The notes under the pieces are model-generated. The model was not told the DNA's origin and did no database searches. It was given only the letters and a program-made list of their open reading frames with translations. Below, in pieces: positions 5,958 through 42,238 of a stretch of 42,238 bases of DNA. The position numbers were made by a program, and so were the translations under genes. Origin of the DNA: a virus; the IMG/VR virus record IMGVR_UViG_3300030118_004073, positions 1 through 42,238 of that record. One strand, written 5' to 3'. The stretch's first letter is position 1. Each line of letters starts with the position of its first letter.

Positions 5958-8900
5958 TTATATTTGTTCTTGATAAGCTGATCCAGCTGTTATTGTTAAA
6001 GTTGTAACTGTATTTGAAGAAGGAAAAGGGTTACTAACGTAAGTTATTCTAACTCTTATTGAGCCGTTGCCTTGTAAGGTTGCTGCAACTGTACCAGCAA
6101 AGTTATTTATAGGCGTAGGTTCTGTTAAAGAAAAAGTAAAGTCATCTGCAGCTAATTTCCATAGTATACCTTTTTCAACTTGTGGATGTATATAAAAATC
6201 TACAGTTTTGCCAGTTACGTTAGAACCTGATTTTTCATTAAACTTAATAACTTTGTTAGTTGATGTTGAGTCTGAAGACGAATTATTTATTATCCATTTT
6301 TTAGGATGTTTATTAGAAGCTATATCAACAGCTGTAACCGTATGTGTAAAACTTCTGACATTAGAATTTAATCCTATTGTAGAAGGTTTACCTATACCTT
6401 GAACATTTAACCCAGCAGTTTTTAACAAATCAACGTCGTTGTTTATTTTAGTACCTTTTATAAAGTTAAAATATTTACCTTCTTTTTCAACAAAAGCTGT
6501 TATACTACCACTTTCTTTGTCAGTAGTTATAGTGTTAGCAATCCAACCAGTATCACCCTCATAACTTATTGTTTTAAAATCTTTAACAGTATCTGGCTCG
6601 CCGTTAAATATAAGATTAACTGTTGAGTCATATTGAGTTCCGTAAAAATTATTTCTAGTTAAATTTTCACCATGCATGTATATCTCTCCATCTTTAAAAG
6701 TATAATACGAGTTTGTTATAGACAAGCCGTTTTCAGGAACAAAAGATTTAAAACTTACCCAGCCATTTACTTTTTCTGTAAAACTCAACGTTTTACCATT
6801 TAACGTTATATTGTAATTATCCTTTAATACGTCGTAAGATCCATGAACCTTTAAAGAATCATCTAAGTTTTCTCTAAAATATTTAGACATACCTTTTTCA
6901 GATATATTAGTAAGCCCGTCCATTGACAACCTAAGCACAGCACCTCGTTTTTTATCTGAAAAATAACACCTATAGCCATACGAGGCAAAAGACTCTGGGT
7001 TTGTAGATATACCATACTCACCTGCAAAAGGCACCGCTTGTCCTAAAACTTTGTTGGTTGCCGTAAGTTGAGGATTTCCATCAGCATTAAATATAGCGTC
7101 TTTTGTTGCTAAAACTTTTAAAACTTTATCTTCACACAAAACAACTATATTAGTATCTCTTGTATGAAGTTTTTGTATAGAACCATAATCAGGATTTAAA
7201 TCTTTAGTTATTTTTTCACCTTGTATAAACTGGTTTAAATTATTAAAACTTGATTTTGAGTTGTATATACCAGAATATATTATGCTGTTATATTTAGTTT
7301 CTTCTTTATAATCTTCATTAAGTATAGTAGAAACCCTAGGCCCTTTATCTATAGTTACAGCGTTGTAATCATCAAAAAGCCTGTTAGATTCTACACCGTT
7401 ACCAAAAGCAAAACAGTTGTAATATTCTAATCTTTTAGTAAGAACATCTTCGTTTAAAATATTATATACAACATTATCTACTTGTTCAAAACCACTAGAC
7501 TGTATTGTCTCGCCTTGTGGAACAGGTACTATATCAGTGTTTAAAACAAAGTTTTCTTCATAAAGAACATTTCCATTTTGATCTTTTTCAAATATAATTA
7601 TTTCTTCGCCGGCAGGTATTCTAAAGTTAACATGCGATGGTTTTATTTGAAAAACATTACCTTGTGACAAGTTTTGTTTAGTTACTATAGCGTTATTAGA
7701 AAGTGGGTTTTCATTATTAGCAGTTCTAAAATTAGTCTTTACACTCATACCGTCTTTTACAACCATTCTAGCTACTGGTGTTTCATAAAATAGCTCTAAA
7801 TCTGCCTTGTCTTTTGGTAATACCTCAAAAACAGCTGGTGAATCACTACTTATGTCAACCTCTCCAAAGTCTATTTCAAAAGCAGAAAATCTACTAGAAT
7901 TAGAATTTTTTAAGTTTTCTTTATTATTTTTTTCTTCAGTAGAGCCAAACGTTTTATTAGCTGCGTAAGAATTAGTGTTTAACTCTAAAGGTGTTATTAC
8001 TGGCTGACCATTACTTCCTACACTTTCCATTGGGCTCCAAACAATAGCTTTGTCTAACTGAATATTTATAGCTAAACTTTTTTCATAATATTTTAATTGA
8101 TCAGGTTTTATTGTTGTTTGATCGTTAGAAGAAGCGTCAACAGTAATACTACCGTCGTTAGTTCTACAATCAGTATTTACAACGTCAAAAGCCTCAAAGC
8201 CTCTTATAATATAAGCTGTATTTGTAGGATCATTAGTAAACCTAAAAGTTTGACCTTCAGTAGTTAAGTATCTATAAAAATTGTAAAGCACGCCTAAATT
8301 ACCTTTTGCGCGGCCAAAGCCGTTTATACCAAAAAGTTTAAAAGTACAATTTGTTTTACCAACTTGCCAACCGTCACCAACGTAAGGCGCAACATCATAC
8401 TGTGGTAAATCTCCAGTCTTTGGATTACCAGGCTCTTTCATAACTCTAAAACCTACTGTTTGATCTATGCAAATAGAAGGGTTTGCTGCTCCACCAGAGT
8501 TAGATGGGTTTGCGTAGTCAAGCTCTTTCATGCTAAATCCATTTATAGCATTTTGGCCATACACAGAGCTGTCTATTATACCTCTAGTTGTTCCACCAAA
8601 TTTAATATGCTTTGCAACACCACCAACAGTAATAGTTGCTGCCCAAGCAACACCGCCAGCAGTCTCTGGGTTTAGATTAAAGCCATTACCATTTTTCTCA
8701 CCAGATATTAACCTAGTAGAAGCGCTCCAATTATTTATACCAAAAGCTCTTCTTGCATATACTAAATCACTTTCATTGAAAAATGTTTCATACCTTACTT
8801 TTCTAGTAGTTGACAAACCTAGCAATTCCTTTATATAATTAGAAGATGTTGTAAGGTTAGTATCTTCTATTATTGCATCGCCATTACCCTGATCAAGTAA

Positions 8901-11900
8901 CCATGTTTGTGCGTAAAACATTTTTGCAGAATCTCTGCTTTTAAACGTTTTATTTGCAGCTTGAGTTTGATATATAAAATCATTTAATATGTGGTCTCTT
9001 GCTGTTTTTATAAAAAATTTACCTTTAAATTCTTCTCCGTGATCTTCTGTTGTTTGTTTAAAAAACTTAACTTTAAGTTTCAAATCTTGAGGGTTTGGTA
9101 AAACAGTATTGCTAGAGTCGTAAGAAGAAGTGGCTATATCTAAAAGCTCTATTTTTTCTGCTTGAGGAGAGTTGCCCATAAAGCTTATGTCATGACTAAA
9201 AGGTGTTTTTGTTTTAAACAAATAAACATCAGTCATATCCATAAAAGTTAACTCTTCGTGCTCGCTTACACTAATTGGACTACTTAAAGTTATACTGTTA
9301 GTGCCCACTTTTGTTATAACTATTATTTCGTCAACTTTAAACCCTTCTTCAGTAGACGTTGTAGCGTTTCTTGGTGATCCAGTATACGTTGTAACATCTT
9401 TACTATCTACAAGTCTCATACCAACTTGTAAAGCACCGTCTGGATCACTTACAACTTGGTCGTTTGACTCGCTTGTTTTTTGATTTTGATCTAAAGCTAT
9501 TACAGACTTGTTTTGATAATCCGCAGCCGTAACAACAACAATACCAGCATGGCTTTGAGCTATACCTTTTTGATAATGAGCGTTTGTAGTTCCTTCTACA
9601 GCTATAGTTATAGTCTTTTTATATATTTTTTCTATTTCATACTTTTTAGACATAGAGCCATTTAAAGTTGAAGAAAAATCTACAAACCTATTGTCAACGT
9701 CATACCACACGCCTGTGTTTGTAATATAAGACTCGAGTTCATCTATTAACTCAGCATCTTTTCTAATATCATACGCGCTTAAAGAAAAGCTTGATTTTCC
9801 AGCAACAGGATAATCACAAAATTGCTTTTCATACTTAGCGTTTTTTGTAGCGTTATTATCCGACGAGTTTACAACAGCACCAGCTGAAAAAGTAACACTA
9901 TTTTCGCTTTCACCAATCTCTTCCATTCTAAACCTTATATGTTCAGGTGGTTGAGCTTGTTTATCTAAAACTTTGTATTTAACAATTGACCCAGGAACAA
10001 TACTAACAGCAGTTTCTGAATCGTGCTGCTTTTTTATAGATATGTAATCGTTTTCATTTATTTTATTAATTTCAGAAGAAGGAAATGAAATCCATACGTT
10101 TTCATCTTCAACATCACTATAAAATCTATCCATAGCTAAGTTGTAATATTCGCTAGAAGAATCTTTAACGTAATATTTATAGTGCGTAGCCCAGTCTGGA
10201 GGAGATGAAGACAAAGCACACTGTAACATGTTTGCTGTAGCAGCTTTGTTTTGGTCTAACTTAACAATACCTGTTTCGTCTGTAAAAACAGGTGTTTGTC
10301 TACCATATTTATCTAAAAACGAAACACCAATTTGATAATTTCTTAATGCTTTTAAAGATTTTAATGGTTTATCTTCTACTTCAATACTATTTGTTTTAAC
10401 TTTAAACTCAGCAGGAGTGTTAAAATAGTTGTATTGTTGTAAATAATTACCATACATTATTCTATTACCAGTAATTTCTTGAGCTTTAGCTTTTCTAGGA
10501 ACATTGTCATAAGGTCTTAACATTTGGTTTTCTGACAATAAAGATTTTATTTCTTCAGATGTAATAACAACAGAATCGTCTGTTTTAAGAGTTTCAAAAT
10601 CTTTGTTTTGAATAGTTCTTACAATATAAACGTTAGTAGAGTCAGACTTTTTATAAAGTATGTCTATAGACTTTACATCTTCTGGCATTTTACTTATACC
10701 TGACAAAGTTATTCTTCTAAGATCATTTATCATAGACTTATTATAACCTTGTTTTGAGTCATAATTATAACCGTCTTCGTCTTTTGGTATAAAACAAACC
10801 TCTGTAAAAGGTGATATTGCAGAGTACTCATTATCTATGTATTTATATCTATAAGCAAATCTTGCAAACTCTTTTTCATATATAGCTTCAGGTTGTTGTC
10901 TTCTTGATACAAACTTTAAATTTCCTAAGTTACCAATAATAGAGTTGTCTATAGAAAGTATTTCAATATCAAAAGCTTGTCTACCGTTATTATTAGACCC
11001 TCTAAAACCACAACTAGTTTCAGAGTTTCCACTAACTTTTTGTACACCCACATTGTCAATAGCGCCAGACCACTCGGTGTCATTAAAAAACATTAATTCA
11101 GTTAAGCTAAAAGCCCCTCTTTCAATAGATTTTTGTTTCCAGTAAACACTATAAGTTCCAGTTGCGTGTGTAGGTAACAATATGTGGTTTGAATGACCTC
11201 TATCTGTATCGTCGCCGGTATACCTGTCATCTGTTGCTAAAATTAAGTTTAACCTACCTTGCAAACCGCTACTACCAGAAGAAGCCGTTGTTACTGTATA
11301 TGTTAATTTGTAAACTTCATCTGCAACTAAAGCTTCAGATAAAACATTTCTAACATAACCACCGGCTGAGTTTGATGAGGTTAGTGTACCTCCAGTAACA
11401 TAAAACCCAGCTGAAGAAGTTCCAATATCAGTGGTTCCAGAGGTTCCAGTGTGCCAAGTTGTTAAATTTGAAAAATCACCATTAGATATTTTTTGATTAC
11501 CAGTAACACCAGTACCTATTGCGTCAGCATGTGAATTAGATATACGTTTGTTATTTTGGCTTTTTATTTCTTTTGTAAGTTTTACTGTTATATCAACAAA
11601 CTCGTTATCATCTGAACTTGTAGCTAAAACGTCGTTAGCTTGTAAAGTTATAATATCGTTAACAGCGTAAGAAGTGTTTCCGTAAAAATGCAAAGGTTGT
11701 ACTCTAACTACTCTAGGTTTAGATAAACAAACTATTTCGTTTATTTTTAAAGTACCTACAGCTGTTGACTCTGCAAATATACAAAGTTGCCCATATGTAG
11801 AAGAGTTGTTACATTTCCATATAATATCTATTTCATGTGTACCAACCGCGCTTCTTCTAGTTTCGTAACCATTTATACCTGTTTTTTGCCCGTTTATATT

Positions 11901-13325
11901 ACTATGCTCATTTAAAAATCCTATAGTACCAGCTGTAGTTATAGTTATAGTGGCTTTCATTCTATATATATGACCTTTTATAAGGTCTGTCGGCGCTGTA
12001 ATTTTAGGGTATATAGAAACTGAACCGCCAGTACCATCGTAAGAGTATGTTCCAGAGCTATAACTCCAACCAGTTTCATAATTATGCTCTCCAGTTCCGG
12101 AGGTTGCAGCAGACTGCGTTAAAGTTATATCAGTACCAGTTCCATCGCCTAACAAGCCAGCGTCTTTTAAAATATTACCACTAGCATCTGTAAAATTTTC
12201 AGAATTAGTTCCTACAGGTTTTTTTAATATATTACCACTGCTATTTTTATAAGCCCAAAAATAATCGTTGTTATATGGTGAAGACCAGTGAAATATTCTA
12301 ATTTTAGTACCATCTGTAGGTTGTGTTATAAAAGGAGCTACACCTTTTACTGTTAAAGTGTGGTTATACCAGTCAACCGTTTCTACAGTATGATATACGA
12401 CTGGTTCAGCCCAAGTCCCAGATCCGTTAGTGCTTATAGCAACTTTCATACCAGGTTCTACAGCTCTCCATTTTTTATAATCAACACCAGTAGTAAAACC
12501 AGAAGTAGCAAAAGAAATAATAAGATTATTATTATCGTCTACATAGTTGTTTGCAACTCTTTCTAAATAGTTTTCTTCTGTTAAATTAAAAATAGTGTGA
12601 CTACCAGATGTTGAAGCTAATATATTTTGTGGTAAAAAATTTGAATTTTGATATTCACTTGATGTTATAGCTGATCTTTCTACAAAATAACTATTGCTAG
12701 AACTATAAGAAACTCCTTTAACATTACCCTCTCTAATAGAACTATCAAGTTTTACTTTTGGCGCGTTAAGAGGGTATTTTTTTATAACCGTTATTAAAGC
12801 TTCGTGAACATTGTTAGTGTACGTACCATCAGAATTTTGGTACTTTGTGGTTGTTGAAAAGTTAGTAGAACCATTTTTCATTCTACTAATATTTATTTTT
12901 TTAGGCTCTGAGTTGTTATCTGTAAAAAACAATAACTCATCTATTATGTTAGCACCAGTTATTAAAAAATCACTATTAAAATTTAAAAAAGAACTACTAG
13001 TACCTTTATTTGTATCTACTAAAACCGGTGTTACGTCACCAGTAAAAGGGTTGTATTCAGCTATAGCGTCAACAGTGTCTCCACAAATAAACCATAAAAT
13101 ATTTTCAGTTTGTTTGTCAACAACTGAACCAATACATGTTCCGCCTATACCTACGGTAGATTTTACAACGTTACCATAAGAATTTTGTGCCGATCCAGCA
13201 TCACTAGATTCTGAAAACGACACGTCAACATTTAATGCATCTCTATATTGTCCATTAGGTATTAATCTCTCGTCGAGATCTTTGTTCATCTTACCAGCAT
13301 GGAACACATTTTTTAATTCCGGCAT
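5958..13325 (-). CDS. Giant tail nozzle/muzzle-like structural protein (2455 aa)
   Basis: This is by far the largest gene of the window. The N-terminus (about residues 5-45) has NKDLDERLIPNGQYRDALN, a motif I know from large tail tube/nozzle-type proteins of marine and crAss-like podoviruses; it describes a protein that closes the distal tail, like T7 gp12 in role. A conserved-looking stretch near residue 955 (VPRKAKAQEITGNRIMYGNY) fits the same family. Two inserts, about residues 420-535 and 613-760, look like jelly-roll carbohydrate-binding modules; the second opens with ISNGDFSNLTTWH, the usual start of a CBM_4_9-like domain. The rest is strand-rich, with no membrane segment and few cysteines. 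It follows the 373-aa connector-type gene by 3 bases. The assignment rests on the N-terminal motif, size and position; exact tail location is inferred. Confidence 0.7.
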   Translation of the reverse strand: MPELKNVFHAGKMNKDLDERLIPNGQYRDALNVDVSFSESSDAGSAQNSYGNVVKSTVGIGGTCIGSVVDKQTENILWFICGDTVDAIAEYNPFTGDVTPVLVDTNKGTSSSFLNFNSDFLITGANIIDELLFFTDNNSEPKKINISRMKNGSTNFSTTTKYQNSDGTYTNNVHEALITVIKKYPLNAPKVKLDSSIREGNVKGVSYSSSNSYFVERSAITSSEYQNSNFLPQNILASTSGSHTIFNLTEENYLERVANNYVDDNNNLIISFATSGFTTGVDYKKWRAVEPGMKVAISTNGSGTWAEPVVYHTVETVDWYNHTLTVKGVAPFITQPTDGTKIRIFHWSSPYNNDYFWAYKNSSGNILKKPVGTNSENFTDASGNILKDAGLLGDGTGTDITLTQSAATSGTGEHNYETGWSYSSGTYSYDGTGGSVSIYPKITAPTDLIKGHIYRMKATITITTAGTIGFLNEHSNINGQKTGINGYETRRSAVGTHEIDIIWKCNNSSTYGQLCIFAESTAVGTLKINEIVCLSKPRVVRVQPLHFYGNTSYAVNDIITLQANDVLATSSDDNEFVDITVKLTKEIKSQNNKRISNSHADAIGTGVTGNQKISNGDFSNLTTWHTGTSGTTDIGTSSAGFYVTGGTLTSSNSAGGYVRNVLSEALVADEVYKLTYTVTTASSGSSGLQGRLNLILATDDRYTGDDTDRGHSNHILLPTHATGTYSVYWKQKSIERGAFSLTELMFFNDTEWSGAIDNVGVQKVSGNSETSCGFRGSNNNGRQAFDIEILSIDNSIIGNLGNLKFVSRRQQPEAIYEKEFARFAYRYKYIDNEYSAISPFTEVCFIPKDEDGYNYDSKQGYNKSMINDLRRITLSGISKMPEDVKSIDILYKKSDSTNVYIVRTIQNKDFETLKTDDSVVITSEEIKSLLSENQMLRPYDNVPRKAKAQEITGNRIMYGNYLQQYNYFNTPAEFKVKTNSIEVEDKPLKSLKALRNYQIGVSFLDKYGRQTPVFTDETGIVKLDQNKAATANMLQCALSSSPPDWATHYKYYVKDSSSEYYNLAMDRFYSDVEDENVWISFPSSEINKINENDYISIKKQHDSETAVSIVPGSIVKYKVLDKQAQPPEHIRFRMEEIGESENSVTFSAGAVVNSSDNNATKNAKYEKQFCDYPVAGKSSFSLSAYDIRKDAELIDELESYITNTGVWYDVDNRFVDFSSTLNGSMSKKYEIEKIYKKTITIAVEGTTNAHYQKGIAQSHAGIVVVTAADYQNKSVIALDQNQKTSESNDQVVSDPDGALQVGMRLVDSKDVTTYTGSPRNATTSTEEGFKVDEIIVITKVGTNSITLSSPISVSEHEELTFMDMTDVYLFKTKTPFSHDISFMGNSPQAEKIELLDIATSSYDSSNTVLPNPQDLKLKVKFFKQTTEDHGEEFKGKFFIKTARDHILNDFIYQTQAANKTFKSRDSAKMFYAQTWLLDQGNGDAIIEDTNLTTSSNYIKELLGLSTTRKVRYETFFNESDLVYARRAFGINNWSASTRLISGEKNGNGFNLNPETAGGVAWAATITVGGVAKHIKFGGTTRGIIDSSVYGQNAINGFSMKELDYANPSNSGGAANPSICIDQTVGFRVMKEPGNPKTGDLPQYDVAPYVGDGWQVGKTNCTFKLFGINGFGRAKGNLGVLYNFYRYLTTEGQTFRFTNDPTNTAYIIRGFEAFDVVNTDCRTNDGSITVDASSNDQTTIKPDQLKYYEKSLAINIQLDKAIVWSPMESVGSNGQPVITPLELNTNSYAANKTFGSTEEKNNKENLKNSNSSRFSAFEIDFGEVDISSDSPAVFEVLPKDKADLELFYETPVARMVVKDGMSVKTNFRTANNENPLSNNAIVTKQNLSQGNVFQIKPSHVNFRIPAGEEIIIFEKDQNGNVLYEENFVLNTDIVPVPQGETIQSSGFEQVDNVVYNILNEDVLTKRLEYYNCFAFGNGVESNRLFDDYNAVTIDKGPRVSTILNEDYKEETKYNSIIYSGIYNSKSSFNNLNQFIQGEKITKDLNPDYGSIQKLHTRDTNIVVLCEDKVLKVLATKDAIFNADGNPQLTATNKVLGQAVPFAGEYGISTNPESFASYGYRCYFSDKKRGAVLRLSMDGLTNISEKGMSKYFRENLDDSLKVHGSYDVLKDNYNITLNGKTLSFTEKVNGWVSFKSFVPENGLSITNSYYTFKDGEIYMHGENLTRNNFYGTQYDSTVNLIFNGEPDTVKDFKTISYEGDTGWIANTITTDKESGSITAFVEKEGKYFNFIKGTKINNDVDLLKTAGLNVQGIGKPSTIGLNSNVRSFTHTVTAVDIASNKHPKKWIINNSSSDSTSTNKVIKFNEKSGSNVTGKTVDFYIHPQVEKGILWKLAADDFTFSLTEPTPINNFAGTVAATLQGNGSIRVRITYVSNPFPSSNTVTTLTITAGSAYQEQI

Positions 13326-18878: not shown

Positions 18879-21305
18879 TTATACGCTAGGCTCAAATTGA
18901 CCTACGTCAAATCCACCTCCCATACTGTCATTTGCAGATTCAAAATCTACAGGTTGACCGTCACCTGTTCTTTGGTTTATAAGTTTGCTTTGTTGAGACG
19001 CTTGCATTTTAGTTCTATTATCTTTTCTGTCTTCACGAGCAGACTCTCTGTCAGACAAACTTTTAGTTTCTTTTTCTTTTAGTTGCATATTGTAAAAATG
19101 CTCTAACTGCATTAACTGTTTTTTCAAATCAGCTTCGCTCATCATTTCTTGTTTTTTAAACTCTGATCTTTGAGCTTCTAACTGCATTTCTGTTTGAGCT
19201 AGCATTTGCTGTTTTTGAACTTCAGCTTGTGCTGCTGCGGCTGCAGACTGTTGGTTTAACTGTGCTTGCTGCTGCATGTTTTGTTGTGCTATTTTTTGAT
19301 CTAGCTCTTGCTTTTTCTTTCTACGTACTTTTAACAACTGGTTAGCTAGTTTTAAATTTCTAACCTCTCTAACGTCAATAGCATCTTCTAAATTTATACT
19401 TTGTTGTTGCAATGCCATTTGTATATTGTTTTCTAACAACTGTTTTTCTTCTTCATCTGGTTGTAGCTCTATAAATATACCAAAGTCGTGTAAATGTAAG
19501 TCTTTTAGTTCTTGTAAAACACCAACATTAAACGCGCCTATTTTTTGCACAAAAGCTTCTTTTGTTGGTGAATACTCTAAAACATCTGATATCCTTAATG
19601 ATAAACACTCTGCTATTTCAGCTGTTAAAAACAAACCTGCGTCTAATATGTGTCTTGTAGCTGTGTTGCTATTAGCGGCTGCAATTTTTTGTATACCAAC
19701 CAATGCGTTTTTATCAGGCATACTACCATCTCTTGCTTCGTTAAGACCAGTAGCATCTCTAATCATTTGCATGTAGTAGTTATACGTTTGTATTAAGCTT
19801 TGCATTTTAGCACCACCATTACCACTTGCTATTTCTTGTATAGGCACTCTACCTGGATTCATATCACCATCAGCTGTCATTGATCTACCAATAACACTAC
19901 CTGTTTGGAAAAACATGTTTAAAGCTTCTTGCGGATTATAGTTTGTACCATTACCTAAGTCTATCTCTGCAAGTCCATCAGCATCTAAGTATATACCATC
20001 AGGTATCATACGTGACATTACTTGCTGTAGTTTTAAATGTGTTAACTGTATCATATCAGCAAAACCAGTTGTTCTACTAACTAAACTTTCTATTTTACCG
20101 TTGTACATACGAGGAGCGACAATAGCGTAATTCATTTTTACTTTAGTATAATCACTTTTTGGACGCATCATGTTTTTAGCTAGTCCCCAGTGTAATAGTT
20201 TGTTAGTGCCAAGTATTACAGCGCCTTCATATAAAACTTCTACAGCTTTTTCTAGTTTTGTAAAGTCTCCTTGTAGTTCAGCTGGTGGATTGAACTGATC
20301 TGTTTTTAATATAGCTTTAACACCACCAGTTCTAGTGTTTTTCATTTTATAAACCTCGTTGTTATAAGTTTTGTAATTAAAATATAACACTTGAATTTTA
20401 TTGCTATCGTACTTTCCTTGACTAACATATCTTTGATTATATGCTAACTCGTTATAAGGTTTTGTTTTTTGTATTTCTTCAAGCTCAGCCGCTGTTAAAT
20501 CAGGAAACTGTTTTATTAATTCGTTTACAGGTATTGTTTTTACTTCACCTATATAATATATATCTTCAAAATACGGAGACTCTGTATAAGAATAAACTAT
20601 TTTTGCAGGGTCAACGTAATCTACTGTAATACCGGTTGATTTAGAGTAATTAGTTTTTACAGCTCCAATACCTAAAACTGTTAAATCATATAAATATCTT
20701 TTTCTAACTAAATCATAATTATTACCATCAAGCATACAGTTAATAGCTTCTTCTTCTGCTATTTCAATACCTTGTTTATAGTTTAACTGCATATGTAAAG
20801 AAAGCTCCTCTTCATTAGCAGGTAACTCTTCTGTTTCAAACTCACTTGTTCTTACATCAATACCTTCTTGAGCTGCCATCTGTGTAAAAGGTATGCTTTT
20901 CATATCTTCAAGCACATCCTCCATGTATTTAGTTCTTTTTTCAACACCAAAAGGATCTTGAGAATAAGCTCTTATATCGTAAACTCTTTGTGACATGCCA
21001 TTAACTACTATATCAACAAACTTAGGTATAATAGGTACTGGCTTCCAGTCTAAATTTAAATAAGATAAATCACCGTTTATAGACAACTCATCTTTATATT
21101 TTTGTATTGATTGTTCGCCTCTAGCGTACGATCTTAATTTGTGAAAATTATCTTTACCTCTTTGATACTTGCTATTTAAACCACCGTCTTCAAACCACTC
21201 AGCTTCAATAGCTTTAGCAACTTTTAAACCGTACTCTGCCGAGTTTTTATACTCGTCGCTTACGTTTTGTTTAGGAAAATAATCTTGTGAAACAGCTTCT
21301 GCCAT
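18879..21305 (-). CDS. Portal protein (808 aa)
   Basis: The portal forms the dodecameric DNA channel at one capsid vertex. Evidence: it lies directly after the large terminase (gap of 1 base) and before the scaffold; its length is in the range of large podovirus portals; the N-terminal region (residues 40-110) has a KLRSYARGEQSIQKYKDE segment and a following LDWKPVPIIPKFVDIVVNGM segment, which I recognise from portals of crAss-like phages. Residues about 635-770 form a long Gln/Ala/Glu/Lys-rich coiled coil, likely the barrel and crown helices, followed by a flexible acidic tail. No enzyme motif is expected or seen. Confidence 0.82.
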   Translation of the reverse strand: MAEAVSQDYFPKQNVSDEYKNSAEYGLKVAKAIEAEWFEDGGLNSKYQRGKDNFHKLRSYARGEQSIQKYKDELSINGDLSYLNLDWKPVPIIPKFVDIVVNGMSQRVYDIRAYSQDPFGVEKRTKYMEDVLEDMKSIPFTQMAAQEGIDVRTSEFETEELPANEEELSLHMQLNYKQGIEIAEEEAINCMLDGNNYDLVRKRYLYDLTVLGIGAVKTNYSKSTGITVDYVDPAKIVYSYTESPYFEDIYYIGEVKTIPVNELIKQFPDLTAAELEEIQKTKPYNELAYNQRYVSQGKYDSNKIQVLYFNYKTYNNEVYKMKNTRTGGVKAILKTDQFNPPAELQGDFTKLEKAVEVLYEGAVILGTNKLLHWGLAKNMMRPKSDYTKVKMNYAIVAPRMYNGKIESLVSRTTGFADMIQLTHLKLQQVMSRMIPDGIYLDADGLAEIDLGNGTNYNPQEALNMFFQTGSVIGRSMTADGDMNPGRVPIQEIASGNGGAKMQSLIQTYNYYMQMIRDATGLNEARDGSMPDKNALVGIQKIAAANSNTATRHILDAGLFLTAEIAECLSLRISDVLEYSPTKEAFVQKIGAFNVGVLQELKDLHLHDFGIFIELQPDEEEKQLLENNIQMALQQQSINLEDAIDVREVRNLKLANQLLKVRRKKKQELDQKIAQQNMQQQAQLNQQSAAAAAQAEVQKQQMLAQTEMQLEAQRSEFKKQEMMSEADLKKQLMQLEHFYNMQLKEKETKSLSDRESAREDRKDNRTKMQASQQSKLINQRTGDGQPVDFESANDSMGGGFDVGQFEPSV

Positions 21306-21306
21306 A

Positions 21307-23523
21307 TTAGTTTTCTATTATTTTAGAAGTATAACCATCGTTTTTATATCTAGCTATACTTATATTTAATTTTTGTCTTTGTACTGTTGCGTTAGGCTTG
21401 TATAAATGTCTATTGCAAGCCATAATTGCTAAACCGCTACTTATAGCAGCGTCAAATTTTGTACGTTTGTTTATATCAAATCTAGCCCAGTCATTTAAAG
21501 TGTCATTAAAATACATATTACCTATGCTACCATCTGGTTTTGTTCCTACGTTGTTTTGTATATACATTTCAATAGCAGCTGCATGCGCTTGTTTAATATC
21601 TTCACTTGAGTTTGGTATGCCACCTATTTCTTTTTCTGCAACAGAAAGTTTATTCCAAACTTTGTCAGGTCTATTCATACTATAACCTCTATATCCTCTA
21701 CGCCTTAAATAGTATAGTAATCTTGGTTTGTTGTTTTCTGCAAGTAAAGGCATACCGTAAAATACTAGTGCCATTAATACATCTTCAAAAAACATATCTG
21801 CAGTTTGTGGTCTTGCTACATATTCTAAAAAAAACTGACTTGGTGGCGCGTCTTCCATGCTAAACTTAGTTAAGCCATGTAAAGCGCCTTTTGATCCTCT
21901 ACCGTCTACCGTGCCACTAATGTCGTAGCTATCACAACCAAAAGCACCCATATGATCGTTGCCAGGATATTTCGTGCCATTTTTTATTATTATATTGTTT
22001 TGCAAATTACTGGGTGGTGTCCAGCTAATTTTAAATCTACCTTTTAAATCTGGATAAAATATAACGCTTGTGTCTTGAACGCCATTTAACCATTGAAAGT
22101 TACCTGTTGAAATGCCTAGTGTTCTTGACATTTCTTCATTGTAATCTATTTGTTCGTATATTTTTACTAAGTTAAATATACTGTTTTGTGCCTCATCTCT
22201 AAACGCATGCTCAGTAGTTCTTGGAAACTGGCGGTAAAATTCGTTTAATGCGTCGCTATCTCCTTTTAAACCATCGGCTTCGTTTTGCCAGTGATCTACA
22301 ATACCTACGTCTATTAATTCCCCGTCGGGTCCGACAACATCTGCGTCAGGACTATTAAATACTGGATATCCGTGTTCATCAATAAATCCTTCGTAGTTCC
22401 ATTCCATTGGGATAAACAAAGAGTAAAGGCCAGACTTCGTTTGACCATTTCTATTTCTTTGTGTGACATCTGATGCGTTGTATAGTTTTTTAAAATTGTC
22501 TCCACCTTTATCTAATGCGTTTGAAGTTGAGCCCATCATACATTTACCAACTATTCTACTACCTAATCGCAAACATGTCTTTGTAACTCTCCAGTTATTT
22601 AATATATTATCAGGTCTTTCCCACTTACCACTTTCATCATGTACTAACAGGTTAAGCTTTTCTCCGTCATAACTATTGTCACCTGTATTTTTCCAATCAA
22701 TAGTAGTATCAAGTCCAACCAAGTCTTCCTGCTGTTCGTTTGTAGTAATTTTTTTACGCGTAAACTTACTTGCAGGAACCCTATAAGCAAGTTCAGACTT
22801 AGGTCTGTCCATACCATCTTGAATCGGTTTAAAGAAAAACGGATAATTGATTGATATTGGAACAACTTTATCTGTAAACATTTTTTTAGCATCTGCACCT
22901 GTTTTAGAGAGTATACCAAACCTACTATCACTTGCTAATGTAGCTTGGTTAACTGTTTCTGCTGAAGACATGAAAGAAAATCCAGACCTACGATTTTTAA
23001 GGTAGCATATCCCGTAACATCTTTTGTCGGCTTTACAAGCTTCCCAGAATATATAAAATAGTCGATTTGCTTCTCTAAAATCAGGCGCACCTACATCTAT
23101 TTTACTCCACTGCAAGTACATATAATGTGTACCTGTTATATATGTTGGTGTGCCTTTGTTATTAAACCAAAAACCTTGCTCTCTACGCTTGAACTCTTCA
23201 TCTATATAGTCATACCACTGTTCTTTAGCTTCGTCAGGGTAGGCTCTCCAGTCAAATATATTTTTTAATTTACTTAACTGTTTTGGCTGTTCAAATCTAA
23301 CCCACTTTTTTTCTTTGTTGCTATACACACTGCTAGCTTTTGGCAAAGCTATTTTAAGGTTTTGTATTTCGTATATATCACCTATTTGACCTGTTCTACT
23401 TATAACAACAACATCGTGCTCTTTGTTATAGCCATACCTCCACTTTTTACTTTTATTTAATCTAGTTATAGTGGTTTTTTTTATAGGCTCTATTACATTT
23501 AAAAGCTTTTGTTCGTAACTCAT
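21307..23523 (-). CDS. terL: Terminase large subunit (738 aa)
   Basis: ATP-driven DNA packaging motor with a headful or end-cutting nuclease. The ATPase part has a deviant Walker A at residues 176-183 (KNRRSGFS), a Walker B strand at 291-297 (NLLVHDE, with Asp296-Glu297) and a GSTSN coupling motif at 331-335. The nuclease part has an RNase H-like first acidic strand FGCDSYDISG at 528-537 with Asp531, a likely second acid Glu596 in LLAENN, and a later Asp in KFDAAISSGLA near residue 700. The N-terminal FNNKGTPTYITGTHYMYLQW-like region (residues 120-139) is typical of the crAss-like/Bacteroidota podovirus branch as I recall it. The start overlaps the small-subunit stop by 3 bases (ATG-TGA overlap), indicating coupled translation. 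Confidence 0.9.
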   Translation of the reverse strand: MSYEQKLLNVIEPIKKTTITRLNKSKKWRYGYNKEHDVVVISRTGQIGDIYEIQNLKIALPKASSVYSNKEKKWVRFEQPKQLSKLKNIFDWRAYPDEAKEQWYDYIDEEFKRREQGFWFNNKGTPTYITGTHYMYLQWSKIDVGAPDFREANRLFYIFWEACKADKRCYGICYLKNRRSGFSFMSSAETVNQATLASDSRFGILSKTGADAKKMFTDKVVPISINYPFFFKPIQDGMDRPKSELAYRVPASKFTRKKITTNEQQEDLVGLDTTIDWKNTGDNSYDGEKLNLLVHDESGKWERPDNILNNWRVTKTCLRLGSRIVGKCMMGSTSNALDKGGDNFKKLYNASDVTQRNRNGQTKSGLYSLFIPMEWNYEGFIDEHGYPVFNSPDADVVGPDGELIDVGIVDHWQNEADGLKGDSDALNEFYRQFPRTTEHAFRDEAQNSIFNLVKIYEQIDYNEEMSRTLGISTGNFQWLNGVQDTSVIFYPDLKGRFKISWTPPSNLQNNIIIKNGTKYPGNDHMGAFGCDSYDISGTVDGRGSKGALHGLTKFSMEDAPPSQFFLEYVARPQTADMFFEDVLMALVFYGMPLLAENNKPRLLYYLRRRGYRGYSMNRPDKVWNKLSVAEKEIGGIPNSSEDIKQAHAAAIEMYIQNNVGTKPDGSIGNMYFNDTLNDWARFDINKRTKFDAAISSGLAIMACNRHLYKPNATVQRQKLNISIARYKNDGYTSKIIEN

Positions 23524-37506: not shown

Positions 37507-37760
37507 TCAACTACAACAACATCTCTTACAGTTATTACATAATACATTTGATCTTTATGATCTATGCCAAAACCAGCATGTTTGTCATATCTTACAATAT
37601 CTCCTTCACTTAAACCCTCTACAAGGTTTCCACAAGATATAACCTTTGCTCTTAAGTACCTATTGTCAGTGTCTGTATTTTCTGTTAATAACAAGCCAGA
37701 CTCAGTTTTTCTTTCTTCTTTTAGCTTGTCAACTATTACAAAATTATTTATCGCTCTCAT
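37503..37760 (-). CDS. groES: Co-chaperonin GroES (85 aa)
   Basis: Forms the cap of the GroEL cage. The chain has the GroES order: FVIVDKLKEE opening strand, mobile loop at residues about 14-30 (RKTESGLLLTENT, with Leu23-Leu24-Leu25 in place of the Ile-Val-Leu contact of E. coli), the RAKVISCG strand, LSEGDIVRYDKHAG (53-66) and the closing YYVITVRDVVVVE. It is about 10 residues shorter than typical GroES (about 97), mainly in the roof region and loops. It overlaps the upstream groEL gene by 17 bases and the downstream winged-helix gene by 4 bases. Order groEL-groES is the reverse of the usual bacterial groES-groEL operon. Confidence 0.9.
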   Translation of the reverse strand: MRAINNFVIVDKLKEERKTESGLLLTENTDTDNRYLRAKVISCGNLVEGLSEGDIVRYDKHAGFGIDHKDQMYYVITVRDVVVVE

Positions 37761-39318
37761 CTAGTCTCATATTTGAAATTACACAATCTGCAGAAACAAT
37801 AGTTGATACCACACTCACTGCATTTTTGAGCGCCGATTTTGTAACCAAAACCGGATCTATAATACCACATTCAATCATATTAACTTTTTCACCAGTTACA
37901 ACATCAACACCTTTGCCTTGTGTGTTAACCATATTAGGTCTTTCAATACCAGCATTGTCTAATATTGTTATGTAAGGTGAAACTATAGATTTTAATAATA
38001 TTTCTTCACCCACCGCGTCAGCGGTGATTTTTGTAGAAGCATCTAACAAAGCTACACCACCACCTGACACTATACCTTCTTTCAAAGCAGCTTTAGTAGC
38101 GTATATAGCGTCTTCGACACGATCTTTCTTTTCTTTTAATTCTACTTTAGAATTAGCACCCACTTTGATGATTCCAACACTACCCGATAACATAGACAGT
38201 CTTTGTTCCAGTTTTTTCTTAATGAAACCATTTTTTTCGTTAGAAATGAGTTTTGATACGTGTTTGATTCTTTCGGGTAAAGCCTGTTGAACATCATCTA
38301 TTGTAGTTATTACTGTTGTTTTTTCTTCTGTAACAGACAAAGCGGCTTCGCCTAAGTGTTCTGGTGATATAAGATCTAAATCATCACCAAGTTGTTCATC
38401 TATTACTGTTGCACCTGTTAATACAGCTAAATCCTCACATGTATTTCTTTTAGTAGGACCAAAGCCTGGTAAGTCAACTACATTAACTTTTATATTACCT
38501 TTAACTTTGTTTGTTAATAAAGCTGCTTTTACCTGCTGAGCAACTGGCGCTACTATTAATAAAGATCTGTTTTTCTTTATAACATGCTCTAAAACGTTTT
38601 GTATACGTCTTATATTTGGTATTTCACTGTAAACTATTAATACATGTGGATTATCTAGCTCACATTTATGTTTTTCTGTGTTTGTTACCCAATGTGGCGA
38701 CGTTAAACCAACATCTAACTGCACACCTTCAACAACATCTACATAAGTTTCGTTAGTTTCGCTCTCTTCCATAAAAACTACGCCATTTTTACCAACTTTT
38801 GAGTATGCTTCTGCTATAATTTTGCCAAGTTCTGCATCATTATTACAAGATATTGTGCTTACAGCGTTCAAAAGATCATCTTTAACGTCTATTTTAACAC
38901 TATTTAAGTAATTATTGACTTTTTCTAGTCCAGAATTAAGACCTTGTTTAATTTCTCTTATAGAAACGTCTTTGTAAGTGTCACTATTTATAGTTTTTAT
39001 TAGTGATTCAGCAAGGACGGTAGCTGTAGTAGTACCGTCACCTGCTTCTCTCACTGTATTTTGCGCAGCTTCTTTAATTAAAGTTGCACCTATGTTTTCA
39101 ACCGGATCATATAAGACTACGCTTTGCGCCACGGTTACACCATCTTTTGTTATGACCGGTTTGCCGCGTCCATCTTCGTAAACTACGCACTTACCAGAAG
39201 CGCCTAACGTGGACTTTACGGCTTTAGCTAGCTTTTCCACACCAGCAATTACTTTATTCTTAGCATTATCGCCAAAGTCTAACGACTTAACGATTTCGCT
39301 AGGGTTGTTATATTCCAT
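37744..39318 (-). CDS. groEL: Phage-encoded chaperonin GroEL (524 aa)
   Basis: Tetradecameric ATP-driven folding chamber. ATP-binding motifs are intact: [10 protein letters not shown] (37-46), [10 protein letters not shown] (56-65), [11 protein letters not shown] (93-103) with Asp94, and [10 protein letters not shown] (401-410) with the catalytic Asp403, then SGGGVAL (418-424). The apical domain (about 195-375) deviates at substrate-binding positions: where E. coli has Y199, Y203 and F204, this protein has Leu205, His209 and Trp210, and E. coli L234 is Gln240. The C-terminus ends in NMRLDESDK and lacks the Gly-Gly-Met tail that fills the cavity floor. At 524 aa it is about 24 shorter than E. 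coli GroEL. It lies near the head of the late region, so it probably folds virion proteins. Alignment is by eye. Confidence 0.93.
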
Positions 39319-40032: not shown

Positions 40033-40057
40033 ATAGGGGTATAGTGTTACCCCCTAT
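40033..40057. repeat. Inverted repeat / hairpin in control region
   Basis: ATAGGGGTA pairs with TACCCCCTAT around a 6-base loop, with one extra C bulged. No T-run follows directly on either strand, so it does not look like an ordinary intrinsic terminator. It may be an operator, an RNA structure or part of an origin. Confidence 0.5.
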
Positions 40058-40097
40058 CTTATTGATTATCAATCATTTACAAAACCGTTTACGTTTA

Positions 40098-40113
40098 GCC
40101 GGGGCCCCCCTCG
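40098..40113. other. GC-rich island in AT-rich control region
   Basis: Sixteen bases, GCCGGGGCCCCCCTCG, with 15 G or C, in flanks that are over 70 percent A/T. It contains the 8-base palindrome GGGGCCCC and is bordered by GTTTACG on the left and CGTTTAAAC on the right. Nothing of similar composition occurs in the neighbouring non-coding DNA. It could be a protein-binding or end/packaging site, but no function can be read from it. Confidence 0.6.
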
Positions 40114-40173
40114 TTTAAACATAATATTTCAAATTTTTTACATTTTTATATATTTTTATAATGACTATTTTTT

Positions 40174-40209
40174 TTACAAACTAAATACATATGTGTGTAG
40201 ATAATATAA
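40174..40209 (+). promoter_or_regulatory. Promoter element, copy 1
   Basis: TTACAA at 40174-40179, exactly 20 bases, then GATAATATAA at 40200-40209. Identical boxes with identical spacing occur four times upstream of small plus-strand genes. The 14-codon reading frame at 40238 starts 28 bases beyond the second box. Confidence 0.75.
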
Positions 40210-40237
40210 ATGTAAATAAAATATAAATAATTACAAA

Positions 40238-40282
40238 ATGAGAGAAGTCGCGGAATATATACTAACTAAAATTTATAAGTAA
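40238..40282 (+). CDS. Possible 14-aa leader peptide
   Basis: ATG to TAA frame coding MREVAEYILTKIYK, the first frame after promoter copy 1 and just before copy 2. It is too short to judge by composition. Its position allows it to be a small early product or a leader affecting the genes behind, but it may be chance. Confidence 0.25.
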   Translation: MREVAEYILTKIYK

Positions 40283-40297
40283 ACAATGTATATACTT

Positions 40298-40333
40298 TTA
40301 CAATGTAAATACGACACTCAAAAGATAATATAA
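40298..40333 (+). promoter_or_regulatory. Promoter element, copy 2
   Basis: TTACAA at 40298-40303, 20 bases, GATAATATAA at 40324-40333; the bases after the second box (ATGTAAATAA) match copy 1 as well. It lies 32 bases before the 75-aa gene. Confidence 0.78.
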
Positions 40334-40365
40334 ATGTAAATAATGTTTAACTAAAATTAATTAAA

Positions 40366-40593
40366 ATGAATATAATAAAATCAAAAAGATTTGTAGTAAG
40401 AAAATCTCTAATCGGTAAAAATCAAGTAATAGAATTTACTAACAAAAAAGGTGACACAATAACTTATAATCACGATAAAGTATACGAAGTTATGAAGTCA
40501 AAACTAGAAACTTTACCATGTTGGACTAAGTACAAAAGTTATACTGCAACTAACAATATTCCAATGTCAGTTAGAAATATAGAGTTAGTATAG
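40366..40593 (+). CDS. Small basic hypothetical protein (75 aa)
   Basis: Not recognised. Basic, with strands and turns in the first half (RFVVRKSLIGKNQVIEFTNK) and a helix around residues 37-48, followed by a Trp/Lys-rich segment (CWTKYKSYT). No membrane segment. It has its own copy of the promoter element 32 bases upstream and a hairpin overlapping its stop codon, so it looks like a single-gene transcription unit. Position on the plus strand, away from virion genes, suggests an early host-interaction protein; this is inference. Confidence 0.62.
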   Translation: MNIIKSKRFVVRKSLIGKNQVIEFTNKKGDTITYNHDKVYEVMKSKLETLPCWTKYKSYTATNNIPMSVRNIELV

Positions 40594-40608
40594 AAATATA
40601 CTAACTTT
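40583..40608 (+). terminator. Hairpin terminator overlapping the stop of the 75-aa gene
   Basis: Perfect 10-bp stem AGTTAGTATA/TATACTAACT (40583-40592 with 40597-40606) closed by a GAAA tetraloop and followed by TT-ATTA. The TAG stop lies at 40591-40593 inside the hairpin. The stem is AT-rich and the T-run short, so termination may be partial; it also immediately precedes promoter copy 3. Confidence 0.6.
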
Positions 40609-40609
40609 A

Positions 40610-40645
40610 TTACAAAATAAATACAAACTAAACTGGATAATATAA
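40610..40645 (+). promoter_or_regulatory. Promoter element, copy 3
   Basis: TTACAA at 40610-40615, 20 bases, GATAATATAA at 40636-40645, directly behind the hairpin of the previous gene and 26 bases before the 40-aa gene. Between the boxes AATAAATACAAACTAAACTG shares the TAAATAC core with copies 1 and 2. Confidence 0.78.
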
Positions 40646-40671
40646 TAAAATAAATAATAAAAATAAATAAT

Positions 40672-40794
40672 ATGTTAGTAAAAAAATTAGACAAATTAGC
40701 TTTTAAATTATACTCTGAATTTGGTTTTACCACCTGTTCAGTTGAAGAACAAGAAATAATATTAAAAGAATTTATAAAACAACTAACTAAATAA
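40672..40794 (+). CDS. Small hypothetical protein (40 aa)
   Basis: Short helical protein beginning MLVKKLDKLAFKLYSEFGFT and ending KEFIKQLTK; amphipathic, basic at both ends, with one cysteine. It follows promoter copy 3 by 26 bases, which supports its being a gene in spite of its length. It precedes the tRNA-like element. Function unknown. Confidence 0.5.
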   Translation: MLVKKLDKLAFKLYSEFGFTTCSVEEQEIILKEFIKQLTK

Positions 40795-40803
40795 TAACAA
40801 ATG

Positions 40804-40895
40804 TTGTAGTTCCACTTGTTTAGCAACTATAAATAATACGAACAAGTATCAGTAGTCATGGTGCCGAGGTGTGTTCGATTCACACGCTACTACAA
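40804..40895 (+). ncRNA. tRNA-like element with perfect T-arm
   Basis: Bases 40869-40885 form a textbook T-arm: GTGTG, loop TTCGATT, CACAC. The outer ends pair as TTGTAGT (40804-40810) with ACTACAA (40889-40895), like an acceptor stem. A 7-bp stem ACTTGTT/AACAAGT (40814-40820, 40841-40847) with a 20-base loop sits at the D-arm position, and TATCA/TGGTG encloses a 7-base loop (GTAGTCA) at the anticodon position. It is not a normal tRNA: the D-loop lacks GG and is too long, three bases separate T-arm and acceptor, and the anticodon arm is weak. Alternatives: a decayed tRNA, a tRNA 3' end serving as an attachment-site core, or a phage structural RNA. Confidence 0.4.
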
Positions 40896-40906
40896 AATTA
40901 ATAAAT

Positions 40907-41092
40907 ATGCAAGTAAATCAACAAATTGAAAATAAGAAAAGGTTTAGAAAAGAAAATTATAAACCAACATTAGAATATATAAACTGGAGTGAAATAGTAA
41001 AAGACTACGATTTAAAAACAGGTGATATATGTTACAGTCAAGTAAACAAATTAGAAACAATAATAAATAATTTCATAAAAAATAATAAGTAA
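40907..41092 (+). CDS. Small hypothetical protein (61 aa)
   Basis: I chose the ATG at 40907; the in-frame ATG at 40871 lies inside the tRNA-like element and would add 12 residues of unlike composition. The protein is highly charged, with a basic start (QIENKKRFRKENYKP), an NWSEIVKDYDL segment and a C-terminal helix (LETIINNFIKNNK). No known motif. It is followed after 1 base by the 41-aa gene, forming a compact series downstream of promoter copy 3. Confidence 0.58.
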   Translation: MQVNQQIENKKRFRKENYKPTLEYINWSEIVKDYDLKTGDICYSQVNKLETIINNFIKNNK

Positions 41093-41093
41093 T

Positions 41094-41219
41094 ATGATAG
41101 TAAGAAAAGTAGGTGGACTATGGATAGTTCAAGCAAAAACAAGTAATCAAATAGTATTCTCACACAAGTCAAAAATGGCATGTTACGAATGGATGTTTAA
41201 AGATGTACACTATGCGTAA
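41094..41219 (+). CDS. Small hypothetical protein (41 aa)
   Basis: ATG at 41094, 1 base after the previous stop, to TAA at 41217. The product starts MIVRKVGGLWIVQAKTSNQI and contains a CYEWMF segment; its strand-turn-strand pattern with aromatic residues looks like a small folded protein. Overlap of 8 bases with the next start supports translation coupling. Function unknown. Confidence 0.5.
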   Translation: MIVRKVGGLWIVQAKTSNQIVFSHKSKMACYEWMFKDVHYA

Positions 41220-41289
41220 AGTAGCAGATAATTATACAGCAGAAGTAATAATATTATTAGTAATATTAATAATGATTTTTACAAAATAA
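41212..41289 (+). CDS. Tiny single-span membrane peptide (25 aa)
   Basis: Frame from ATG 41212 to TAA 41287, overlapping the previous gene by 8 bases. After a short charged start (MRKVADNYTAE) the remaining residues VIILLVILIMIFTK form one strongly hydrophobic segment, enough to cross a membrane. Such peptides can act on host membrane proteins or in lysis control, but no role can be read here. The first box of promoter copy 4 overlaps its last codons. Confidence 0.45.
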   Translation: MRKVADNYTAEVIILLVILIMIFTK

Positions 41290-41314
41290 AAACAACTAGA
41301 GTAAGATAATATAA
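41279..41314 (+). promoter_or_regulatory. Promoter element, copy 4
   Basis: TTACAA at 41279-41284, 20 bases, GATAATATAA at 41305-41314, 12 bases before the 57-aa gene. The bases following the second box (TAATAAAAT region) match copy 3 (TAAAATAAATAA) in part. Confidence 0.76.
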
Positions 41315-41326
41315 TAAAATTACGTT

Positions 41327-41500
41327 ATGAACAAAATAAAATTCCTTAAAAACAATAAAATTAAACTAAATAATACAACTTATAAACCATACACTATTTG
41401 TCAACTCGCCGACACTAAATTCGGTTTAACTGACACTGACGGTAATTCTTTTATTACTGAATGGTTTAACTATAAAGGCTTCACCTATGTCGCAGAATAA
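41327..41500 (+). CDS. Small hypothetical protein (57 aa)
   Basis: First gene after promoter copy 4. It has a basic start (MNKIKFLKNNKIKLNNTTYK), then YTICQLADTKFGLTDTDGNS and a closing WFNYKGFTYVAE; a strand-rich fold is likely. The stop overlaps the start of the 85-aa gene by 14 bases, indicating coupled translation. No known motif. Confidence 0.56.
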   Translation: MNKIKFLKNNKIKLNNTTYKPYTICQLADTKFGLTDTDGNSFITEWFNYKGFTYVAE

Positions 41501-41906: not shown

Positions 41907-42238
41907 TAAATGGAAGTATGCTGGCGATGACAGATACATGAAAGTATATAACAATATGCAACTACTTGGTATTCAAGATGTTACAACAGAAAAACAACAT
42001 AAAAATGGTACAATAGTGTGGCGATTACCAATACTATCAGATGCAAAAGGTAAATACCTTGAGTACGCTTCATTCAAAAGCGGTTACGTAAGAAATCAAG
42101 GTGTAGACTGTCACAGCAATTGGCAATGTAACAAAAGAATACCAAAAGACGAGTATTATCCAGAGTACAAATGGGTTGATGGTTATCAAGTAAAAACAGG
42201 TAAATATAGAAAATTTACTACTCGTACTTGTGAACTAA
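41893..42238 (+). CDS. Hypothetical protein, cut by the right edge (at least 115 aa)
   Basis: Open frame from ATG 41893 to the end of the window. Aromatic and charged, with WRLPILSDAKGKYLEYASFK, a CHSNWQCNKRIP segment with two cysteines, and many Tyr/Lys residues. It overlaps the preceding gene by 14 bases. No recognised motif in the visible part; the C-terminus lies outside. Confidence 0.55.
   Translation, partial: MRENNKWKYAGDDRYMKVYNNMQLLGIQDVTTEKQHKNGTIVWRLPILSDAKGKYLEYASFKSGYVRNQGVDCHSNWQCNKRIPKDEYYPEYKWVDGYQVKTGKYRKFTTRTCEL

Follow-up and report, generated by a model that had tools for sequence, protein, structure and literature searches.

Promoter-Like Elements of an Uncultured Flavobacterial-Type Phage and Their Probable Recognition by a Phage-Encoded σ70-Family Factor

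Genome Organization of the Window

The sequence analyzed here (hereafter, the window) is the IMG/VR virus record IMGVR_UViG_3300030118_004073 over its full length of 42,238 nucleotides. Virion genes (terminase, portal, capsid-type proteins, tail fibre and groEL) are located on the minus strand, and a block of small genes on the plus strand starts at ca. 40.2 kb. Features referred to below are listed in Table 1. The terminase and portal proteins group the window with podophages of Flavobacterium (elemo), Cellulophaga (phi38:1 and phi18:3) and Maribacter (Panino); the same grouping includes the spring-water genome MW202828, whose terminase is 63% identical to that of the window.

Table 1. Positions of genes, putative promoters and other features in the window.
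Feature	Position	Strand	Remarks
Giant virion protein, start	3–1808	−	runs off the left edge
2455-aa virion protein	5958–13325	−	C-terminal crAss muzzle domain
Portal	18879–21305	−	used to place the phage and in the orientation test
Terminase large subunit	21307–23523	−	used to place the phage and in the orientation test
Phage GroEL	37744–39318	−	PHROG 5725
Divergent region between virion and early genes	40035–40130		hairpin and palindrome
Putative promoter, copy 1	40174–40212	+	upstream element 40174–40190 (TTACAAACTAAATACAT); −10 box GATAAT 40200–40205; predicted +1 G 40212
Putative promoter, copy 2	40298–40336	+	upstream element 40298–40314 (TTACAATGTAAATACGA); −10 box 40324–40329; predicted +1 G 40336
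First conserved early-strand gene	40366–40593	+	75 aa, no known family
Putative promoter, copy 3	40610–40648	+	−10 box 40636–40641; predicted +1 A 40648
Small early-strand ORF behind copy 3	40672–40794	+	40 aa
tRNA-like stretch	40822–40893	+	between early genes
Putative promoter, copy 4	41279–41317	+	−10 box 41305–41310; predicted +1 A 41317
Small early-strand ORF behind copy 4	41327–41500	+	57 aa

The muzzle domain of the 2455-aa protein links flavobacterial podophages with crAss-like phages. The start of a second giant virion protein, seen at the left edge, apparently carries an N-terminal lytic transglycosylase-like domain, as judged by eye; giant open reading frames of relatives encode 2300–3700 aa. 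A phage GroEL is also present in the isolated Flavobacterium, Cellulophaga and Maribacter relatives. The divergent region contains a GGGGTA...TACCCC hairpin with T-rich sequence after it on both strands, which resembles a bidirectional terminator, together with a GGGGCCCC palindrome; many relatives have similar GGGCCCC stretches ahead of their first early gene. The tRNA-like stretch was called tRNA-Met(cat) by ARAGORN at a relaxed threshold only, and scans of the window with Rfam and with ARAGORN at default settings returned nothing; in relatives G028 and G022, the early strand has a clear tRNA-Met(cat).

Four Identical Elements Among Small Early-Strand Genes

A search of the whole window retrieved four exact copies of TTACAA-N20-GATAATATAA, all on the plus strand. 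No match was found in 100 dinucleotide shuffles of the window, no additional copy appeared in the window when two mismatches were permitted at a gap of 20, and no copy of comparable quality was seen there at gaps of 16–24. In a Markov-shuffle control with five mismatches permitted, the mean was 0.11 matches against the 4 observed. The proposal of an earlier sequence-only reading that four identical elements with a fixed 20-base spacing are present is thus confirmed, as is its description of the spacer cores (TAAATAC in three copies, TAAAAAC in copy 4). The spacer is non-random: in relatives, it holds a second conserved block, TAAATACGA.

The same reading placed each element in front of a small plus-strand gene, which is correct for copies 2–4, with leaders to the downstream ORFs of 30, 24 and 10 nt, respectively. 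It does not hold for copy 1, the first member of a tandem pair in the divergent region, behind which only a 14-codon ORF (40238) precedes copy 2. Paired copies ahead of the same first early gene are common in relatives. Orthologues of this gene are present in other motif-bearing genomes, and none was found in the five motif-less isolates compared.

The Elements Are Confined to the Non-Virion Strand of a Phage Clade

The two boxes together with the TAAA-AC core were found in at least 119 IMG/VR stretches. The terminase of the window is encoded by 38 of the 41 motif-bearing records examined, mostly with 71–85% identity. In every one of the 41, all copies within a record are on a single strand, and in all 38 records with a terminase match, the terminase is on the strand opposite the motif. 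In eight near-complete relatives and the window, the copies keep out of larger genes: 70 of 81 are located within 60 nt ahead of an ORF (18% under the null), and 6 of 84 are inside ORFs of at least 150 aa, where 73% would be expected at random. The downstream genes are short, with a median of 72 aa and no product longer than 300 aa. The random scatter that would have spoken against a regulatory role is therefore rejected, and further copies, as anticipated, are restricted to the non-virion strand and lie before small genes. This distribution supports the suggested early or middle regulon, with the two classes taken together. The motif is absent from the isolated relatives MW202828, Panino, phi38:1, elemoA and phi18:3. 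Judging by sequence, the elements are predicted promoters common to a large uncultured group of marine viruses that infect flavobacteria-like bacteria.

Motif Anatomy and the Predicted Start Site

The anatomy of the element was derived from eight near-complete records (59–71 kb) and the window, using the core AAATACGA-N9-GATAAT with at most two mismatches. Early strands of this set contain 84 core copies, against 12 chance-like matches on late strands, and the consensus is TTACAAACTAAATACGA-N9-GATAATA. Conserved positions comprise T/A-T-A-C-A-A-A-C at −38 to −31, TAAATACGA at −30 to −22, GATAATA at −12 to −6 and a purine at +1. Since positions outside the search pattern (G at −23 and A at −22) are also conserved, the motif extends beyond what was first recognised. 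With its blocks separated by 9 bases, the strict pattern matched more than 119 IMG/VR stretches, and there were 0 matches in IMG/VR when the gap was set to 8 or 10 bases. Excesses on the early strand at gaps of 12, 14 and 15 look, by reasoning, like self-overlap of GATAATATAAT and not like alternative spacings.

A purine is found exactly 12 bases past the G of GATAAT in 98% of the 84 copies. In copies with a leader, the +1 base is a purine in 97% (A in 48%, G in ca. 49%), and G accounts for less than 10% at neighbouring positions; among 105 aligned promoters of the first early gene, a purine occupies +1 in 100%. In 21 of the 84 copies, an ATG begins exactly at +1. These two independent signs indicate the same start, seven bases after GATAAT, and therefore identify GATAAT as a −10 box with a predicted +1. 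Two elements at a fixed spacing and a predicted start ca. 7 nt after a −10 hexamer are what a σ-dependent promoter is expected to show. The start had been anticipated 5–10 bases past the second box; the predicted position instead lies 3 bases beyond the right box, which is 10 bases long. Roughly one promoter in four looks as though it yields a leaderless mRNA. Many loci were found via the motif itself, which biases the upstream part of the logo; the +1 purine and the set of records selected by the σ gene (see below) do not carry that bias.

The −10 Box Differs from the Host Promoter Code

The promoters of Flavobacterium hosts have the consensus TTTG / TAHHTTTG, with T−12, A−11, T−8, T−7, T−6 and G−5 (PMC6847099). 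The phage box shares only A−11 and T−7 with this primary promoter (PMC6847099). At −12, −8, −6 and −5, it has G, A, A and T/A where the host has T, T, T and G, and the phage element is without the TTTG element at −33. The remark of the sequence-only reading that the second box is unlike the flavobacterial −7 element was thus well founded. A scan of 257 Gb of bacterial and archaeal genomes gave two matches to the strict pattern, both in phage fragments within Bacteroidetes MAGs, each fragment carrying the first early gene of the clade; a looser core pattern had no copy elsewhere in those two MAGs. Since the strict pattern is confined to phage fragments of MAGs, host promoters are not its source, and the consensus comparison and the bacterial genome scan together led us to reject the elements as host promoters. 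Host-type pairs (TTG-N17-24-TAHHTTTG) were also sought ahead of the early genes, and none was found.

A σ70-Family Gene Accompanies the Motif

Motif-bearing relatives encode a protein of ca. 250 aa with σ70 regions 2 and 4. Region 2 matched Pfam PF04542 (Sigma70_r2) above the cutoff in two of the three sequences scanned (2.5e-5 and 5.8e-6); matches of region 4 to PF04545 (Sigma70_r4) were obtained in three sequences (0.0013, 1.8e-4 and 5.7e-8), the third alone being above the cutoff. The protein matches PHROG 351, its best PDB matches are FliA, with an alignment spanning regions 2–4, and SigA/RpoD, and its fold matches in Foldseek are σA. No match to this σ was found at E ≤ 1e-3 in the 50,697 phage records of INPHARED.

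Of 20 motif-bearing records, 19 contain the σ gene; of 20 motif-less relatives, among them five complete phage genomes, 0 do. The core motif was absent from the 15 of these 20 relatives that were scanned for it. The sole motif-bearing record without σ, G026, is 59 kb long, shorter than most, and ends within the early region. The association also holds in the other direction. The σ is encoded by 354 IMG/VR stretches, and 24 of 35 records picked by the σ gene alone have the exact core. A motif matrix applied to 80 σ loci gave 117 matches on the σ strand and 0 on the other. Ahead of genes, GATAATA occurs 3–11 times per genome on the early strand and 0–2 times on the late strand of σ-bearing genomes, and 0–2 times on both strands of σ-less relatives; for GATAAT before genes, the counts are 50 early and 9 late. 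The association is seen within a single clade, and common descent instead of function could account for it.

In σ70, Gln437 and Thr440 read the base at −12. The equivalent positions, in the register of the PDB-match alignment, are Gly and Arg in 78 of the 78 phage σ proteins scored. This substitution matches the G found in place of T at −12 of the phage box, a suggestive correspondence that falls short of proof. The window record ends at 42238, and in relatives such as G030, the σ gene is ca. 8 kb beyond the first early gene; because the window ends before the expected site, its own σ is deduced from the nearest relatives. The earlier suggestion that another σ factor or a phage protein may read the elements is supported by these data.

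The Upstream Half Varies and Is Accompanied by an HTH Gene

The sequence TACAA-N6-TACGA at −37 to −22 is a direct repeat with an 11-base period and has the look of a binding site that one protein occupies two times along the same helical face, as in the case of λ CII. In most of the 11 σ-selected records (of 35) without an exact core, GATAATA stays in place and the upstream half is changed, consistently within each genome: to TTACAAACAAAATACAA in G059, G064, G074 and G082, to TCGAAACATAATACGAAT in G062 and G073, to CACGGAC in G070 and to ATATAAGTTTGACACGA in G092. A constant −10 box with a variable upstream half is expected if the conserved σ region 2 reads the −10 box.

A gene for a protein with a C-terminal HTH lies at most 30 bp upstream of the σ gene at 55 of 76 loci and at most 300 bp upstream at a further 17. 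It is missing from three records (L226, L255 and L260, two of them near-identical, with 98% identity of σ) whose upstream half is TCGAAAC and which keep GATAATA promoters; records with the other upstream variants retain it. This pattern hints that the HTH protein may read the TTACAAAC part. Variation of the upstream half was not significantly related to divergence of the σ or HTH proteins in a Mantel test (p about 0.08–0.13). The predicted structure of the HTH protein is of low confidence (pLDDT 67) and had no Foldseek match at E ≤ 0.001, there was no meaningful match among PDB sequences, and the 50,697 INPHARED phage records contained no match at E ≤ 1e-2. In two of the records without the HTH gene, a protein of 169–170 aa (MNIFYLH...) is encoded in its slot, between the ligase and σ genes (L255:3407–3916 and L260:3404–3916).

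A two-part modular code can be put forward tentatively and with considerable doubt. In such a code, an invariant GATAATA would be read by the phage σ, the swapped upstream halves (TTACAAACTAAATACGA, TTACAAACAAAATACAA, TCGAAACATAATACGAAT, CACGGAC and ATATAAGTTTGACACGA) would be read by the HTH partner encoded beside it, and a quarter of the promoters would be leaderless, starting at the ATG. If so, related phages in a shared host would each be unable to drive the early programme of another.

Proposed Mechanism and Alternative Explanations

We consider it likely that the four elements serve as promoters for a σ70-family factor encoded by the phage itself, the σ of the window being represented by those of its relatives. 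The phage σ would recruit the host RNAP core and redirect transcription to viral genes. DNA melting is expected at GATAAT(A), read by σ region 2, and the upstream half (−37 to −22) would replace the normal −35 element and be contacted by σ region 4, by the HTH protein that most loci encode immediately ahead of σ, or by both. Since the σ gene is located downstream of several same-strand copies, the system should be self-reinforcing once the first dose of σ exists, which puts “middle” or “delayed early” timing on a par with “immediate early” timing in likelihood. It also follows that the first dose of σ must come from elsewhere; it could be made from a host-read promoter, not recognised here, or arrive as protein from the virion. 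No late promoters were identified. A second role of σ in late transcription is possible; GATAATA boxes are few on the late strand.

Alternatively, host RNAP with a host σ could be directed to the elements by a phage activator bound at TACAA-N6-TACGA, in the manner of λ CII or T4 MotA, the phage σ being reserved for late virion genes. The direct repeat at −37 to −22, with its 11-base period, resembles CII/MotA-type sites, an HTH gene lies within 30 bp of σ at 55 of the 76 loci, and early genes need to be started before any phage σ exists. We nevertheless regard this arrangement as unlikely: GATAATA departs from the host TAHHTTTG at four positions (−12, −8, −6 and −5), the core in the two carrier MAGs is limited to phage contigs, GATAATA is nearly absent before genes of the late strand, and the three σ-bearing records that lack the HTH gene still have GATAATA promoters.

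Giant virion proteins at the left edge of the window and in relatives, and the crAss-related muzzle domain of the 2455-aa protein, bring to mind a virion-carried phage RNAP (crAss-type or T7-like) that would read the elements as immediate-early promoters. Such a polymerase is very improbable here, since a crude regular expression for the catalytic-type motif D-x-D-x-D gave only chance-like matches in the giant proteins, the visible start of one of them resembles a lytic transglycosylase, isolates that have giant proteins and no σ are motif-less, and the −10/+1 geometry is of the σ type and not that of a contiguous single-subunit RNAP promoter. That the element always stands ahead of small genes would also suit an operator or a translation signal, i.e., a site acting at the DNA-binding or RNA level and not a promoter itself. 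The two boxes with invariant spacing and the +1 purine at a fixed distance make this extremely unlikely; the element is not a transcribed leader, because an ATG occupies the predicted +1 in 21 copies, and the putative mRNA shows no element beyond an A-rich leader.

Relation to Known Phage Regulatory Systems

Phage σ factors are known from SPO1, T4 and phiEco32/7-11. Bacillus phage SPO1 gp28 and gp33/34 and T4 gp55 shift the host polymerase to later gene classes, and T4 gp55 reads a −10-like box alone; the promoter sequences described here differ from those of all these factors. T4 middle (MotA) and λ CII promoters have a conserved element near −30 that replaces the −35 box, the CII site being a direct repeat one helical turn apart, and both use the −10 box of the host σ. 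Here, in contrast, the direct repeat at −37 to −22 is combined with a non-host −10 box that tracks a phage σ gene.

The closest parallel is with phiEco32 and 7-11, the phage σ regulon of which has the consensus TAATGTATA (PMC4331800, PMC8948821). Shared features are a phage σ70-family protein, use of the host RNAP core (predicted in our case) and few, well-conserved phage promoters (in our case deduced from sequence), some of which are also upstream of the σ gene. For phage 7-11, which has a comparable layout, the explanation given is that σ is initially transcribed from host promoters (PMC4331800). The phiEco32/7-11 σ factors serve middle and late (structural) genes through a short 9-bp element, whereas the copies described here are on the non-virion strand and combine a conserved upstream block of 17 bp with a −10 element of another sequence. 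The host phylum and the σ sequence are also different, and the consensus is unlike TAATGTATA.

No report of the motif or of this σ was found in the open-access literature searched; the σ, its putative HTH partner and the promoter code are undescribed in the searched phage records and that literature. What appears to be new is that Bacteroidota-type phages would have a σ regulon whose upstream element is long and lineage-specific and whose promoters are often predicted to start at the ATG. The host polymerase that Bacteroidota phages encounter follows an unusual promoter code, and little is known of how they take it over beyond the virion polymerases of the crAss type. The find made from sequence leads to a specific σ, a promoter resolved to single bases and its predicted start, a candidate partner and hundreds of natural variants for studies of specificity. 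The infection programme of an abundant group of uncultured marine phages becomes testable, and an orthogonal promoter/σ pair is on offer for flavobacteria.

Records with Repeated σ Genes or Promoter Sets

Record G011 contains two σ genes (L139:3695–4447 and L142:4909–5661) and two HTH partners. Its σ copies are ca. 55% identical to the σ of G018, and the arrangement represents either a duplication or a chimeric contig. In L230/G063, 17 exact core motifs form two near-repeating sets (0.8–6.4 kb and 64.5–70.2 kb), suggesting a duplication of the early region or an assembly of two related phages.
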